Assembly (NCBI RefSeq): GCF_001904635.1
Contig: NZ_MRCB01000010.1
Span: 3,562-43,838 of the forward strand
Direction: 5' to 3'
DNA: 40,277 bases
DNA from: Hydrococcus rivularis NIES-593
Lineage (GTDB): Bacteria; Cyanobacteriota; Cyanobacteriia; Cyanobacteriales; Microcystaceae
A program made the position numbers and the translations under genes. Below, one piece after another: positions 2,491-6,920 of this stretch. The notes beneath the pieces were generated by a model that was not told where the DNA came from, did not search any database, and was given only the letters and a program-made list of their open reading frames with translations. How positions within the stretch are numbered: the stretch's first letter is position 1; each line of letters starts with the position of its first letter.

Positions 2491-3594
2491 CTAACAAATT
2501 CTTGGAAGTTGATCGCCAACCAACATATCTACAATGCGTTCGGTGCCGAATAAAGTTTGCATCAGCACCACTCCCTGCGGCGAGTCGATTACCTCTCCGA
2601 TAATAGTTGCCTTTTCTGCGGTAGGATGTGCCCTCATAGCAGCTAGAACGGTTTGGGCGCGATCGCTAGGAACAACTACCGCTAACTTGCCCTCATTGGC
2701 TAAGTATAGGGGATCGAGTCCCAATAGTTCGCAAATGCCTTGAACCTCTTCTCGCACGGGCATTGAAGACTCATACAGGCGTATTCCCACTTCAGAACTG
2801 AGGGCAAATTCATTGAGTACCGTTGCCAGTCCGCCGCGCGTGGCATCCCGCATCGCCCGAACCTCTGGGCAAACATCGAGAATGGCATCGACTAAGCTAT
2901 TGAGTGGCTGAGAGTCACTTTCGATCGCGCTAGAGAAAGACAGTTCGCCGCGGGCAATTAAAATAGCCGCACCATGATCGCCGAGATAGCCATTGACGAT
3001 AATTTTGTCTCCCGGCTGGAGGTTGCGAGCAGAAATGGAAACGTCAGGGCGAATTACGCCAATTCCTGTCGTATTAATAAAAATTTTGTCAGCCGAACCT
3101 CGGTGAACGACTTTCGTGTCGCCCGTGACGATTTTTACGCCAGCCTCATCAGCCGCCGCTTTCATACTTCTAGCTACTCGACGCAGCGCGTCTACGGGCA
3201 ATCCTTCTTCGAGAATCATGCTACAGGAAAGGTAGAAAGGTTTTGCGCCGCTGACGGCAAGATCGTTTATTGTACCGTGTACGGCTAAGGAACCAATATC
3301 GCCGCCTGGGAAAAAAATCGGATCGACGACGTAGGAATCGGTGGTGAAAGCCAAGCGATCGCCAACAGCAATCAACTCTGCTAAACTGACTCTAGCTTGA
3401 TCTTCTAGTTCTGCCAGCAGGGGATTATCAAAGCTACCGACAAAAATATCGTCAATTAAGTCGCGCATTGCTTTACCGCCGCTACCGTGAGCGAGAGTAA
3501 TGGTAGCATCCCGTACCTTGGCGCGACGGCGGCGGACTTGTTCGACTTTTTGGAAAAGGGAATGTTGAGTCGGGTTAGTTGGATTATGAGTCAT
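2491..3594 (-). CDS. hypE: Hydrogenase expression/formation protein HypE
   Basis: HypE is an ATP-dependent cytosolic maturase. It receives a carbamoyl group from HypF on its C-terminal cysteine and dehydrates it to the cyanide ligand of the NiFe-hydrogenase iron. The protein shows the glycine-rich N-terminal start of the PurM-like fold (TLAHGSGGKAMRDLI), an AIR-synthase-like second half (RDATRGGLATVLNEFA) and the diagnostic C-terminal PRIC ending with the acceptor cysteine. I place the start at the ATG at 3594 (367 residues, MTHNPTNPTQ), because homologues begin close to this point. The frame stays open to 3648, with another ATG at 3606. With the 3594 start the gene overlaps the upstream cupin gene by 11 bases, which suggests translational coupling. 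No other hyp or hydrogenase gene is in the window. Confidence 0.93.
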   Translation of the reverse strand: MTHNPTNPTQHSLFQKVEQVRRRRAKVRDATITLAHGSGGKAMRDLIDDIFVGSFDNPLLAELEDQARVSLAELIAVGDRLAFTTDSYVVDPIFFPGGDIGSLAVHGTINDLAVSGAKPFYLSCSMILEEGLPVDALRRVARSMKAAADEAGVKIVTGDTKVVHRGSADKIFINTTGIGVIRPDVSISARNLQPGDKIIVNGYLGDHGAAILIARGELSFSSAIESDSQPLNSLVDAILDVCPEVRAMRDATRGGLATVLNEFALSSEVGIRLYESSMPVREEVQGICELLGLDPLYLANEGKLAVVVPSDRAQTVLAAMRAHPTAEKATIIGEVIDSPQGVVLMQTLFGTERIVDMLVGDQLPRIC

Positions 3595-4045
3595 AGGGGC
3601 TGCCATCTCGATGCATAAAAATCCAAGCGCCAGCACGATCTGTTGCAATTAGGTCATCATCGGGGTAATTGACTGTATCATGGCAAGTGCGATCGCCAAT
3701 CTCTAAGTAAATGACATCTGCACTAGAACGATTGAGTAAATAATGACCATTTGCTTCTCCTGCCGGAAATCCTGCTGCCATGCCCGATCTTAAGATTTGT
3801 TCGCCAGCATTGGTTACTAGCGTAGCTTCACCTTCCAAAATATAGATAAATTCATCTTGTTTCGTATGCCAGTGACGCAGCGCAGAACGGCTTCCCGGTT
3901 TGAGTTTGACCAGATTGACCCCAAAATTTTTGAGCTTTGCCACATCCCCTAGCCGTTTCTTTACTCTTCCTGCGACTAGGGATTTAAATTGTTCGGGGTA
4001 ATTTGAACCTCTTCGTTCGGGTACGTCTTTGGGATCGATTATCAT
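3584..4045 (-). CDS. Cupin-domain protein
   Basis: A 153-residue single-domain cupin. Motif 1 is visible around HWHTKQDEFIYILEGEATLV (two histidines and a glutamate, the usual metal ligands). Motif 2 is visible as FPAGEANGHYLLNRS, with the glycine and a later histidine. The protein ends with a conserved-looking tail (TVNYPDDDLIA, then FMHRDGSPYDS). Proteins of this shape bind a divalent metal and act as small dioxygenases, isomerases or sugar-binding sensors. The substrate cannot be read from the sequence. The 3' end overlaps the probable hypE start, so the two genes form one transcription unit. A functional tie to hydrogenase maturation is inference. Confidence 0.85.
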   Translation of the reverse strand: MIIDPKDVPERRGSNYPEQFKSLVAGRVKKRLGDVAKLKNFGVNLVKLKPGSRSALRHWHTKQDEFIYILEGEATLVTNAGEQILRSGMAAGFPAGEANGHYLLNRSSADVIYLEIGDRTCHDTVNYPDDDLIATDRAGAWIFMHRDGSPYDS

Positions 4046-4198: not shown

Positions 4199-5677
4199 AT
4201 GAAAAAAGCATCTAATAATACCTCTGGAGATTTTGAACGCAAAAAATTAGATGTCGATCTCTTAACGGTTTCATTAATTGCTTTGCTTATAACAATAGTT
4301 ATTTATTTAATTGTACTTCCTTTTAGAACTTCTTTTATTGGTATTTTATTATATGACCGAGGTCTGACCCAACCTTTTGCAATCTATTTTGCATGTATTG
4401 TAGCAACTTTAAATTTTCTTAAGTTTATCAAGCTGCAAAAAGAGTTGAAAGCGCTCAAAAATTTTTGGATTCCTGAAACTATTCAGTTAGACGATCCCAA
4501 TGCCAAAGATATCGTACAAGTCCAAAAAACTTTAGCAAGAGATGGTCGTTTAATTGCAATTCGTTGCAGCCGCGTTATTGCTGCTTATATTCAGTCAGGC
4601 AATCGAAAAGCAGCATCAGAATTAGCTTTAGATGATTCATCTTTTTATGTTAGTGCTTCGGAGTCATCTTATACTTTCCCGCGCATTCTGATTTGGGCAA
4701 TTCCCTTATTAGGATTTATCGGCACGGTTTTTGGGATAAGTGAAGCCGTTAATGGATTTTCTGGGTTACTAGAAAAAGCGGCAGATGTCGAGCAAATTAA
4801 AGAAGGAATTGGAACGGTTACTACTGGTTTGGCAATCGCTTTTGATACAACGCTATTAGCCTTATTTCTTAGCGTTTTAGTGATGATTCCCTTAGTAGCG
4901 ATCGAGCGTCTTGAGTCTCGATTATTATTGGGAATTGATGTTTATATTAACGACCACCTTCTGCCTCGTTTTAAAGATAAAACCGATCTCGACGAACAAG
5001 CGATCGATCGCGCGATCGATAAAGCTGTTAAAGAACATTTACCAGAGCCTGAAGCTTTAATTAAACCCGCCCATGAATATGCTCGACAAGCAGCAACAGC
5101 TTTAGCCCAAAACTTCGTTAGTGAAGTGAGCAAACTTCAAGAGGTTAATTCTAAACTTATCGAACAAATCGGTCAAGTAAATCGCATGGCTCTTGAAGAC
5201 AGATATGCTTATACAACTGCCTTAGAAAAACAAAAAAATACCAATCAAAACTTGATCGCAGAAATTCGCGGCATTGTTGAAGCGATAAAAGGAAACAATG
5301 TATCTGTTTTGGAGAAACAGAAAGAAATCCATCAAACTTTGCTGGGAGAAATTCGCGATCTAATTGGGACAGTAAAAACAACTCATGCAGAAATGTCAAC
5401 AAGTTTTGTCAGTCAAACGCAACAAATTAACGCTCGACTCGAACGCGCTTCACAAATGCTAGGAACTCGAATAGCCGATCTAGAAAAAGCAGCCATGCAG
5501 CTATCAGAAATTAATCAACTTACACAAAGTCTAGAACGGGTTGTAGCATCGCTAGAACAAGCTCGCTATTTAAATCAAGCTCTTATAGAAGTTAGAGAAA
5601 GTCTTATTCAGCTTAAACCCGCTTTAGAAAAAATGAGCAAGCCCCGCATTATTACATTCGTCGATTCAGAAGAATAA
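4199..5677 (+). CDS. MotA/TolQ/ExbB-family channel protein with long coiled-coil tail
   Basis: A 492-residue inner-membrane protein. I see four membrane segments near residues 21-41, 57-77, 162-182 and 207-234. Helices 3 and 4 carry the MotA/TolQ/ExbB signature: IPLLGFIGTVFGISEAV, then GTVTTGLAIAFDTTLLALFL. In this family such subunits form a pentameric ring around two single-span partners and convert ion flow into motion. Unlike ExbB (about 240 residues), the protein continues for about 258 cytosolic residues rich in Glu, Gln, Lys and Leu, with heptad-like spacing. This architecture resembles ZorA of Zorya defence systems, but no ZorC/ZorD-type gene is nearby. It is the first gene of a three-gene operon, with the next gene 22 bases downstream. 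Base composition is AT-rich relative to the genes after 28 kb. The driven process is unknown. Confidence 0.85.
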   Translation: MKKASNNTSGDFERKKLDVDLLTVSLIALLITIVIYLIVLPFRTSFIGILLYDRGLTQPFAIYFACIVATLNFLKFIKLQKELKALKNFWIPETIQLDDPNAKDIVQVQKTLARDGRLIAIRCSRVIAAYIQSGNRKAASELALDDSSFYVSASESSYTFPRILIWAIPLLGFIGTVFGISEAVNGFSGLLEKAADVEQIKEGIGTVTTGLAIAFDTTLLALFLSVLVMIPLVAIERLESRLLLGIDVYINDHLLPRFKDKTDLDEQAIDRAIDKAVKEHLPEPEALIKPAHEYARQAATALAQNFVSEVSKLQEVNSKLIEQIGQVNRMALEDRYAYTTALEKQKNTNQNLIAEIRGIVEAIKGNNVSVLEKQKEIHQTLLGEIRDLIGTVKTTHAEMSTSFVSQTQQINARLERASQMLGTRIADLEKAAMQLSEINQLTQSLERVVASLEQARYLNQALIEVRESLIQLKPALEKMSKPRIITFVDSEE

Positions 5678-5699
5678 AATCCAAAATTAGTATTCAATT

Positions 5700-6164
5700 A
5701 TGAGCAGACGTTCTCATTCTCGACCATCTATTGAAACAGAATTATTTCCTTTTCTATCGGTTCTTGCTTGTACGATTGGGACGTTAATTCTCTTAATTAT
5801 TGTCCTAACAATGCAGCTTTTTACCAGCCAACGGGAAGTGGCTATAGTTGCTAAAAATAAAACCAATGAAATAGGTAAAAATAGAAGTAAAACTCCTCAC
5901 TATATTGAATGTCGCCACGACGGAGTGATTATTCATCCCAGTCAAAAATTTGTTGCCCAAGAAAATTTAGAAGATCCAAATTCTGCTTTAATTAACTTGA
6001 TCAGCGAAGTAAAAGCAAAACGCGATCGCGAGTATGTAATCGTTGCTCTCCGACCGGATGGGCTTGAAGTTTTTCAAAAAGTTAGAGATTTAATCGAAAA
6101 AGAGGAAATCGATATCGGTTACGAACCCGTCGAGAAAGATTGGAAACTTAAAATAAATAATTAA
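5700..6164 (+). CDS. ExbD/TolR-like single-span protein, first paralogue (channel aspartate replaced)
   Basis: A 154-residue protein. A short basic N-terminus (MSRRSHSRPS) is followed by one membrane helix at about residues 17-41 in the context ELFPFLSVLACTIGTL, which matches the ExbD/TolR/MotB helix. The position that carries the proton-binding aspartate in ExbD (PFxDV) is Ser20 here. After a linker, a periplasmic domain runs from HYIECRHDGVIIHP (residues 67-80) to VALRPDGLEVFQKVRD and IDIGYEPVEKDW (residues 115-148). The next gene encodes the same domain, so the two proteins are paralogues. There is no OmpA-like peptidoglycan-binding domain, so this is not a MotB or ZorB. It probably partners the upstream ring protein. 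Confidence 0.8.
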   Translation: MSRRSHSRPSIETELFPFLSVLACTIGTLILLIIVLTMQLFTSQREVAIVAKNKTNEIGKNRSKTPHYIECRHDGVIIHPSQKFVAQENLEDPNSALINLISEVKAKRDREYVIVALRPDGLEVFQKVRDLIEKEEIDIGYEPVEKDWKLKINN

Positions 6165-6209
6165 TCTTTTTCAAGCTATTGTATTACAAATCAGGCTCTA
6201 GACACAAAA

Positions 6210-6920
6210 ATGAACCGAAGAAGACATCTAAAACCTGCCCATCCTACCCAAAATTTAGATTCATTCTTAGATATTCTGACTAATACCGTCGGAGTGTTAA
6301 TGTTTATCAGTTTGTTTATTAGTCTGATCTCGATTCAAGCTAGTACGACAATTCGCACTCCTTTAGTTTCTAAAAGCGAGAAAAAAGCACACTATTTTGA
6401 GGTTCGCGGCAATAGAGTTACTTATCTAGACGATGCAGCAATCGATCGCCAGCTAACTATTTTAGTCTCATCTTTGCCCAGATGCGATCGCCCCGATATC
6501 CCTCAGAATCTAGATTCAGATCTCTACCAATACTATCTCAGCGATATAGAAGAATACGAAGTTTGCACGAATAGAGTTTTCGAGAGATTGAAAGGCTTTC
6601 AAGCGCAGACGAAAAACTACAACGTGCGATTAGTCGGCGTAGATGCCATAATGTACGAACCCACAGGAGAAAATAGCGGCGAAACGATCAAAGAAATCGC
6701 CAAATCGGATTCCGAATTCAGAACCGTTTTAAGAAAGCTCAATCCTCAAACCGATTATCTCGCTTTTATCGTCAGACCGGATAGCTTTTCTGCTTTTCGT
6801 GCTGCCAGACAACAAGCTTGGGAAAAAGGCTTTGAAATCGGTTGGGAACCTCAGTCAGTAGAGAAACCGATTGTCTTTAATATCTCCGGTTCGGGCGGCA
6901 GAGCGGTGGGCGTACAATAG
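6210..6920 (+). CDS. ExbD/TolR-like single-span protein, second paralogue (aspartate kept)
   Basis: A 236-residue protein with a basic N-terminus (MNRRRHLKPA) and one membrane helix at about residues 20-41. It reads DSFLDILTNTVGVLMF, and Asp21 aligns with the proton-carrying aspartate of ExbD/TolR. The periplasmic part opens with HYFEVRGNRVTYL (residues 61-73). It has an extra central region of about 70 residues with two cysteines (RCDRPD, EVCTNRV), then ends with FIVRPDSFSAFRAARQ and FEIGWEPQSVEKP. Those two end blocks match the preceding protein's RPD...IGYEP block. It lies 45 bases after that gene. The extra central region may decide what this subunit contacts in the periplasm (inference). 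Confidence 0.8.
   Translation: MNRRRHLKPAHPTQNLDSFLDILTNTVGVLMFISLFISLISIQASTTIRTPLVSKSEKKAHYFEVRGNRVTYLDDAAIDRQLTILVSSLPRCDRPDIPQNLDSDLYQYYLSDIEEYEVCTNRVFERLKGFQAQTKNYNVRLVGVDAIMYEPTGENSGETIKEIAKSDSEFRTVLRKLNPQTDYLAFIVRPDSFSAFRAARQQAWEKGFEIGWEPQSVEKPIVFNISGSGGRAVGVQ

Follow-up and report, generated by a model that had tools for sequence, protein, structure and literature searches.

A three-gene cyanobacterial operon encoding a candidate ion-driven motor with a proposed axle of two unequal partners

Here, an operon is described from a 40,277-nucleotide stretch of the Hydrococcus rivularis NIES-593 genome (contig NZ_MRCB01000010.1, positions 3,562 to 43,838 of the forward strand), which is called the window throughout. 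The operon encodes a ring protein (P1) and two single-span partners (P2 and P3), which with little doubt form a motor-family complex. The superfamily in question is that of MotAB, ExbBD, TolQR, ZorAB and SiiAB. The best explanation, given an even chance of being right as a whole, is that the products of the operon work together as a single ion-driven motor in the inner membrane, of 5:1:1 stoichiometry, with a hetero-dimeric axle, a single ion carrier and an output at the cell envelope. Taken by itself, a mixed P2/P3 axle is considered probable; that the motor serves a secreted giant protein in the window's own organism is doubtful. The gene conservation, the paralogy of the partners, the residue pattern at the axle and the gene neighbourhoods were observed directly. 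Genomes, loci and families are denoted by G-, L- and f-numbers where they have to be told apart. The first-pass annotation of this DNA had described three tandem open reading frames (ORFs) on the + strand, at 4199-5677, 5700-6164 and 6210-6920 with spacings of 22 and 45 bases, and these were borne out as follows (aa, amino acids):

4199..5677, + strand: P1, the ring subunit, 492 aa, of the four-span MotA/TolQ/ExbB family with a long cytosolic tail (Pfam MotA_ExbB, PADLOC ZorA1, Foldseek)
4724..4852, + strand: P1 from the T176 codon (third span) to the D216-T217-T218 codons (fourth span); the polar ring that faces the axle is presumed to lie here
4919..5674, + strand: P1 cytosolic tail, about 252 aa, predicted long helices, with a conserved P-R tip (P482-R483, codons 5642-5647)
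5700..6164, + strand: P2, 154 aa, a single-span ExbD/TolR-like partner without the membrane Asp and a paralogue of P3
5757..5759, + strand: P2 Ser20 codon, the position equivalent to the ion-carrying Asp of P3 and ExbD
6210..6920, + strand: P3, 236 aa, a single span with a membrane Asp and an insertion of about 90 aa in the soluble domain
6270..6272, + strand: P3 Asp21 codon, the presumed ion carrier

The main finding is the inequality of the two partners at the axle site. Of 83 P3 sequences, 82 have Asp at this site and that of G231 has Ala; in 50 alignment rows, the Asp is invariant. The equivalent site of P2 is Ser in 77 of 84 sequences, the others having Asp (four), Asn (one) or Ala (one, G231) or being truncated (one); identical sequences were dropped from both counts and the remainder are related, so that they do not represent independent events. 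The single N-terminal span is present in both partners, and the conserved Asp in 82/83 P3 and 4/84 P2. These counts exclude 11 P2, each with Ser, and 8 P3, each with Asp, that had been picked by a motif overlapping the site; with them included, the values become 88/95 and 90/91. A set chosen by BLAST, which covers the motif-picked loci, has the same pattern (Ser in 23/26 P2, Asp in 23/24 P3). It had been suggested earlier that two different single-span partners would fit a hetero-dimer. This is plausible and the single-span partners are indeed paralogous, but they are unequal, P2 mostly being without the ion-carrying Asp, which had been missed. No earlier report of a hetero-dimeric axle with one Asp was found, including in the portions available of PMC9389320, PMC12505986 and PMC12204202, and this is not proof of absence. 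One genome, G231 (L080, L081), looks degenerate: P3 lies on a different contig from the ring and P2, both partners carry Ala and the ring is divergent.

The exceptions are informative as to where the two helices sit. In four genomes (L163, L166, L197 and L200), P2 has an Asp-bearing, P3-like span. Each resembles the P3 span encoded alongside it, L163 being the plainest case. On the ring tree, these Asp-bearing P2 fall in two places, L163 in one and L166/L197 in the other, within a starred group that otherwise has Ser. Read from sequence, this suggests that the P2 span was replaced twice by a P3-like span and that both helices occupy the same place, namely the axle. In picocyanobacteria, P2 has Asn in L230, L248 and L249 and Asp in L250 (outside the main counts), and the Asn-type P2 corresponds to one starred group on the ring tree. 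Seemingly, the acid was swapped in the same partner, for Ser in one group and for Asn in another, and was regained via span replacement. A more distant picocyanobacterial set, L251-L255, has Asp in P2 in all five loci, and P3 also has Asp in L250, L251, L253 and L255, the loci in which the P3 span was read. The loci L251-L255 encode a short-tailed ring (about 275 aa) and two B partners, preceded in four of the five by a protein of about 330 aa; this two-Asp condition may be the ancestral one.

P2 and P3 each have one N-terminal span, and their profiles align end to end (hhalign probability 99.5%, E 2.2e-23), making them paralogues; relative to P2, the soluble domain of P3 is longer by an insertion of about 90 residues. 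The earlier description of both as ExbD/TolR-like was put to the test: both have the single span, but the Asp is mostly confined to P3, the P2-ExbD matches are weak and neither window protein matches Pfam ExbD (PF02472). Scans of window P2 and P3 with Pfam, NCBIfam and PADLOC gave no convincing match, and a PF02472 scan of the window genome recovered two true ExbD pairs and not P2 or P3. As these two ordinary ExbB/ExbD pairs lie elsewhere in the genome, the motor operon is a third, separate set. Among homologues, Pfam ExbD is matched at E<=1 by 10 of 48 P2 (best E 0.0012), and among the 25 listed of the 27 families found for 50 P3 it is absent. The P2 profile aligned to a cyanobacterial ExbD profile at E 0.0046 with a probability of just 7.6%, placing E-L-F-P-F-L-S over E-I-V-P-L-I-D, where the ExbD set came from related genomes, 13 of its 29 loci yielded a reading frame by filter and the row of L283 looks wrong-frame. 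When read by eye, the order of elements in P2 is that of ExbD; since P3 has no ExbD match, it is related to ExbD by way of P2. The AlphaFold2 (AF2) model of P3 has a mean predicted local distance difference test score (pLDDT) of 75, with a low-confidence span at 16-40 and a fairly confident alpha/beta domain from about residue 45. Weak Foldseek matches of this domain to ring nucleases and Cam1 raised a CARF reading. This was not adopted, since a sensor of cyclic oligoadenylates would be expected neither to have elements in ExbD-like order nor to lie on the periplasmic side, as is presumed here. The soluble domains of P2 and P3 are predicted to be periplasmic from the positive residues that precede the span.

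The ring protein fits its earlier description well. P1 has four hydrophobic stretches (16-52, 59-79, 160-182 and 206-240), and it is of the MotA/TolQ/ExbB type, as Pfam MotA_ExbB (PF01618) is matched with 26.1 bits against a cut-off of 22.9 (E 7.8e-6). The long tail was also confirmed at about 252 residues past the last span, and is helical only in a low-confidence AF2 model, which places helices at 288-363 and 369-479 (mean pLDDT 53, four-row alignment). Across ring homologues, the tail is mostly of 127-153 or 184-253 residues. T176 and D216-T217-T218 are invariant in 53/53 aligned homologues, and may be the counterpart, by analogy, of the Ser/Thr polar ring that faces the axle in ZorA and MotA (PMC11890865). 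The tail tip carries a P-R pattern in 91 of 98 rings, of both the long- and the short-tailed form, when a looser pattern is used, the strict first version having found 67/98. Similarly, Gln is the last residue in 89 of 91 P3 sequences (8 of the 91 picked by the motif over the axle site). The conserved ends of the P1 tail and of P3 suggest docking partners on either side of the membrane.

ZorA is the closest match to the ring by both profile and fold, at a distance. PADLOC ZorA1, a model without a stated cut-off, matches the window ring at E 1.7e-6 (25 bits) and 45 of 53 ring homologues (best E 9.4e-10). Foldseek, when given the P1 model, placed ZorA first, followed by TolQ and ExbB, with a probability of 1.0, yet with E of at least 2.2e-3. 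In addition, NCBIfam ZorA (NF033915) scored 27.7 bits with the P1 core and 18.4 with the full length against a cut-off of 100, below the family threshold. The profile search that had been proposed for the ring thus passes the MotA_ExbB cut-off and points to ZorA, but misses the ZorA family cut-off by far. At the family level, the system was rightly called uncharacterised.

The operon is conserved well beyond the window. A ring match at E<=1e-8 is present in 83 of 388 genomes drawn from the host's order, including a fragment in G526 and a distant relative in G501, so the observation is not a matter of chance. In 291 genomes of the class, 27 ring matches were obtained at E<=0.001. Of these, 21 are strong (E<=1.7e-33); the six weak ones (5e-7 to 8e-4) are probably other family members. 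P2 matches 22 and P3 matches 23 of these 291 genomes, and 21/21 strong-ring genomes have both. Only G175 (90% complete) has P2 without a strong ring, and P3 is so found in G175 and in G136 (a 55-residue fragment with a stop). For gene order, 92 ring loci were fetched as longer stretches, leaving out L172, L225, L226 and the duplicates L001-L003. All 75 loci that hold the three genes have them as ring-P2-P3 on one strand, with median intergenic gaps of 20 and 10 bases and largest gaps of 341 and 1088; the remaining 17 stretches lack an identified P2 or P3, owing to contig ends, scattering, ORF overlap filtering or loss. In most genomes of f36 the three genes are at separate places (in G069 at three places on two contigs), and in G120 of this family the ring and P2 are still close together. 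Within f36, the ring is in 12 of 29 genomes, these being 12/13 of three genera and 0/16 elsewhere.

The ring tree mostly follows families, which suggests an old system with frequent losses more than one of high mobility. The tree has 79 rows, which are 98 cores less near-copies (three further rings yielded no core), and its root and some long branches are unsure. Of 72,556 plasmid records, two have a ring coverage of at least 80% and both are cyanobacterial. A pattern scan of genome contigs with a single ring sequence returned three close relatives only, its reach not extending to distant relatives in other phyla. The identification of f36 as marine Synechococcus was rejected, as the picocyanobacterium NB0720_010 falls in f12. 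Synechocystis sll0477-0479 was considered as the same operon and dropped, because one paper contained just the first of these tags, where it labels an antisense transcript. As an aside, L001 (JAAUUT010000001.1) is labelled Candidatus Gracilibacteria, and it and L150 (G596 C87) are both 119,852 bases with equal ring-gene size and score; G596 is placed in the window's cyanobacterial genus, and the label of L001 looks like a binning or naming error.

Neighbouring genes were used to ask what the motor drives. In the window, neighbours were scanned over about 1.7-14.6 kb (four proteins with Pfam, seven with NCBIfam and nine with PADLOC, the last as the best 25 matches per protein). Within this scope, the earlier observation that no TonB, TolA, OmpA-like or Zor gene lies nearby holds: TonB, TolA, TolB, Pal and flagellar genes were not found with Pfam and NCBIfam, nor ZorC, ZorD or ZorE with PADLOC, whose matches fall on genes that are UbiB-like, RecN-like (NCBIfam) and JAB-matching. 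An OmpA-like domain was found neither in window P2 and P3 with Pfam nor among the families listed for homologues. In the neighbourhoods of homologues, whose tabulation had been proposed, no gene other than P2 and P3, TonB and Tol genes included, is kept across the loci, and none names a function. The genes rpoC1, ffh, ylqF and pgsA, seen by eye as shared neighbours, were judged compatible with chance.

The clearest neighbourhood signal is from picocyanobacteria. In three genera (G126, G894 and G657), genes for an ATP-binding cassette (ABC) exporter, HlyD, the ring, P2, P3 and a small protein that is probably secreted are co-directional, and a giant-protein gene is convergent to these type I secretion system (T1SS) and motor genes. 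The ABC exporter of G126 has cNMP, C39 and ABC domains. The full size of the giant protein, 10,749 aa, is seen only in G126; the gene runs to the contig end in G894 and G657, in the latter in two frames, and the G845 locus also ends with its contig. In G557 and G552, one genus of the window's family, a T1SS-type ATPase gene is the divergent neighbour of the motor, and the exporter of G557, the one that was scored, has 775 bits against an HlyB cut-off of 725.6. Among the neighbourhood signals that of T1SS is weighted most: three genera have the motor genes within the secretion operon itself, and the layout resembles that of SiiAB.

A build for such a motor can be proposed. The ring would consist of five P1 subunits, and the axle would be a hetero-dimer of one P2 and one P3, both of which would extend their C-terminal domains into the periplasm. 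Asp21 of P3 would be the sole ion carrier of the axle, and P2 would contribute the second helix with Ser at the equivalent site. The long P1 tail with its conserved tip may hand movement to, or receive a signal from, a cytosolic partner, and the P3 C-terminus may have the same role on the periplasmic side. Stoichiometry, ion flow, rotation and periplasmic topology are all predictions here, as is the output in the window's organism; the work would most likely be performed at the cell envelope. In picocyanobacteria, the partner would probably be the T1SS and its giant protein, with a SiiAB-like control of its retention or movement. The first-pass annotation had proposed an ion-driven motor whose output differs from those of TonB, Tol, flagella or Zorya. 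By the features tested it is indeed not Zorya, Ton, Tol or Mot, but the T1SS-operon relatives resemble SiiAB, and an entirely novel type of output is therefore improbable.

Salmonella SiiAB is the auxiliary proton channel of the T1SS of Salmonella pathogenicity island 4 and controls the surface retention of a 595-kDa protein in a manner that depends on the proton motive force (PMC6272769, PMC12607715). These two sources describe a Mot/Exb/Tol-type ring with a single-span partner, encoded with a T1SS whose ABC protein has a C39-like domain and with a giant repeat protein, and the picocyanobacterial loci have a similar layout. SiiA, however, is one partner with a peptidoglycan-binding periplasmic domain, whereas the cyanobacteria have two paralogues, one mostly without Asp; the likeness is one of gene layout and description, and the window operon does not have T1SS genes beside it. 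ZorAB of Zorya shares a ring with a long C-terminal cytosolic tail, and ZorA is the best profile and fold match, but P1 is far below the ZorA cut-off, the partners are two and different, no OmpA-like domain was seen in them, and ZorC/D/E are missing from the scanned window neighbours. Myxococcus AglR/AglQ/AglS also consists of one ring protein and two TolR/MotB-like partners, possibly hetero-dimeric. According to the description of this system, the conserved Asp is present in AglQ as well as in AglS, unlike in most P2, and their hetero-dimerisation was still open in 2022 (PMC9389320). The likeness to ExbBD/TolQR lies in the ExbD element order (by eye) and the weakly aligned motif of P2; the window ring differs in its four spans with a long tail, in having two partners and in the lack of TonB/TolA among the scanned neighbours. 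From the MotAB flagellar stator, the operon differs in that no OmpA-like domain was seen in P2 and P3 and no flagellar gene is among the neighbours scanned.

Three other explanations were weighed. As P3 alone bears the residue that a conventional axle requires, the axle may be a P3 homodimer (5:2, two Asp), with P2 a separate regulator or decoy that is swapped in as a brake, and the unlinked P2 and P3 of most f36 genomes, where 1:1 production is not guaranteed, would fit this. P2, however, accompanies every one of the 21 strong rings and is mostly encoded between the ring gene and P3, and its span is P3-like in two separate parts of the tree, so that the homodimer is held to be unlikely. An antiviral motor, either Zorya-like or an accessory of type III CRISPR, is quite unlikely. 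The PADLOC ZorA1 matches to 45/53 ring homologues and the long tail speak for it, as do several neighbourhoods: in Anabaena cylindrica plasmid pANACY.03, G225 and G507 (L147, L064 and L196), III-B cmr genes and the gene of a 510-aa protein come immediately before the operon, and on a Microcystis plasmid it sits after methylase, SLATT and helicase genes. The 510-aa proteins are 75-89% identical, have no Pfam or NCBIfam match and are CARF-like by eye, and the gene preceding that of L064 has a Csm6 match below the cut-off (42.5 vs 150 bits). Nevertheless, the CRISPR link concerns 3 of 92 ring loci, of which L064 and L147 are sister rows (L196 was dropped as a near-copy); ZorC/D/E and an OmpA-like domain were not seen within the scope given above (nine window neighbours by PADLOC, best 25 matches each), and a tree that mostly follows families, with the genes near-universal (12/13) and dispersed in three f36 genera, is unlike a mobile defence island.

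Very unlikely is an envelope or surface motor that serves two-component sensing, for example in surface motility or the response to envelope stress, and not protein secretion. It draws on a kinase-cluster gene that is next upstream on the same strand in 12/92 ring loci, all of the window's family, the kinase that was examined (L169) being a HAMP-HisKA-HATPase sensor kinase. Eight of these 12 loci are from one genus, though, the window operon does not have this kinase beside it, and outside the window's family it was not found directly upstream of the ring.

Several findings weigh against the reading favoured here, that of one motor with a mixed, single-carrier axle and an envelope output. When 1533 neighbour proteins were clustered, nothing beyond P2 and P3 was kept across the order; the next in size, those of kinases and of generic ABC ATPases, reach 17 loci each. 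No T1SS genes are beside the window operon; T1SS-like exporters are common, with 15 matches in the window genome, and the adjacency in G557 and G552 may therefore be chance. The III-B CRISPR neighbours of three loci and the kinase-cluster gene directly upstream in 12 are competing signals. Asp in P2, both in the 4/84 and in L250-L255, means that one Asp is not obligatory. The P3 profile gave no alignment to cyanobacterial ExbD, and the P3 model had no significant match among PDB folds, ExbD included. Finally, the AF2 models are of single chains and that of P1 is poor (mean pLDDT 53).

On the other side of the operon, at 2491-4045 on the - strand, the window encodes HypE (hydrogenase maturation) and a cupin protein, whose genes overlap as called and are divergent from the motor operon.

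The unequal axle is of interest because the published model of such motors needs two alternating sites and this motor family usually offers one. In the turnstile model, two sites alternate, one ion is used per 36-degree step and ten ions per turn, and five ions per turn would require an entirely new model (PMC9389320). If the reading is true, an axle with one site should use five ions per turn and move in steps of 72 degrees, unless it works by a different mechanism. The turning of 5:2 motors has been argued from axles of two identical copies, in which a single-site change is hard to make; here, a natural axle would have one site in most of the species seen and be encoded by two genes, which allows separate manipulation. 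Regarding the giant proteins, SwmB has 10,791 aa, and the 10,749-aa LY254_04120 of Synechococcus sp. NB0720_010 was compared with it by its authors (PMC9387257). SwmB is required for the unexplained swimming of some marine Synechococcus (PMC3342319); no locus-tag evidence that links the motor to swimming was found, strains with SwmB not being among those examined. Tentatively, the operon would encode an ion motor that is widespread in nature and turns on a mixed axle with a single ion-binding Asp, and that in picocyanobacteria drives or holds a megadalton secreted protein. Cyanobacteria would gain an unassigned motor, and picocyanobacteria a candidate power source for giant proteins of SwmB-like size.

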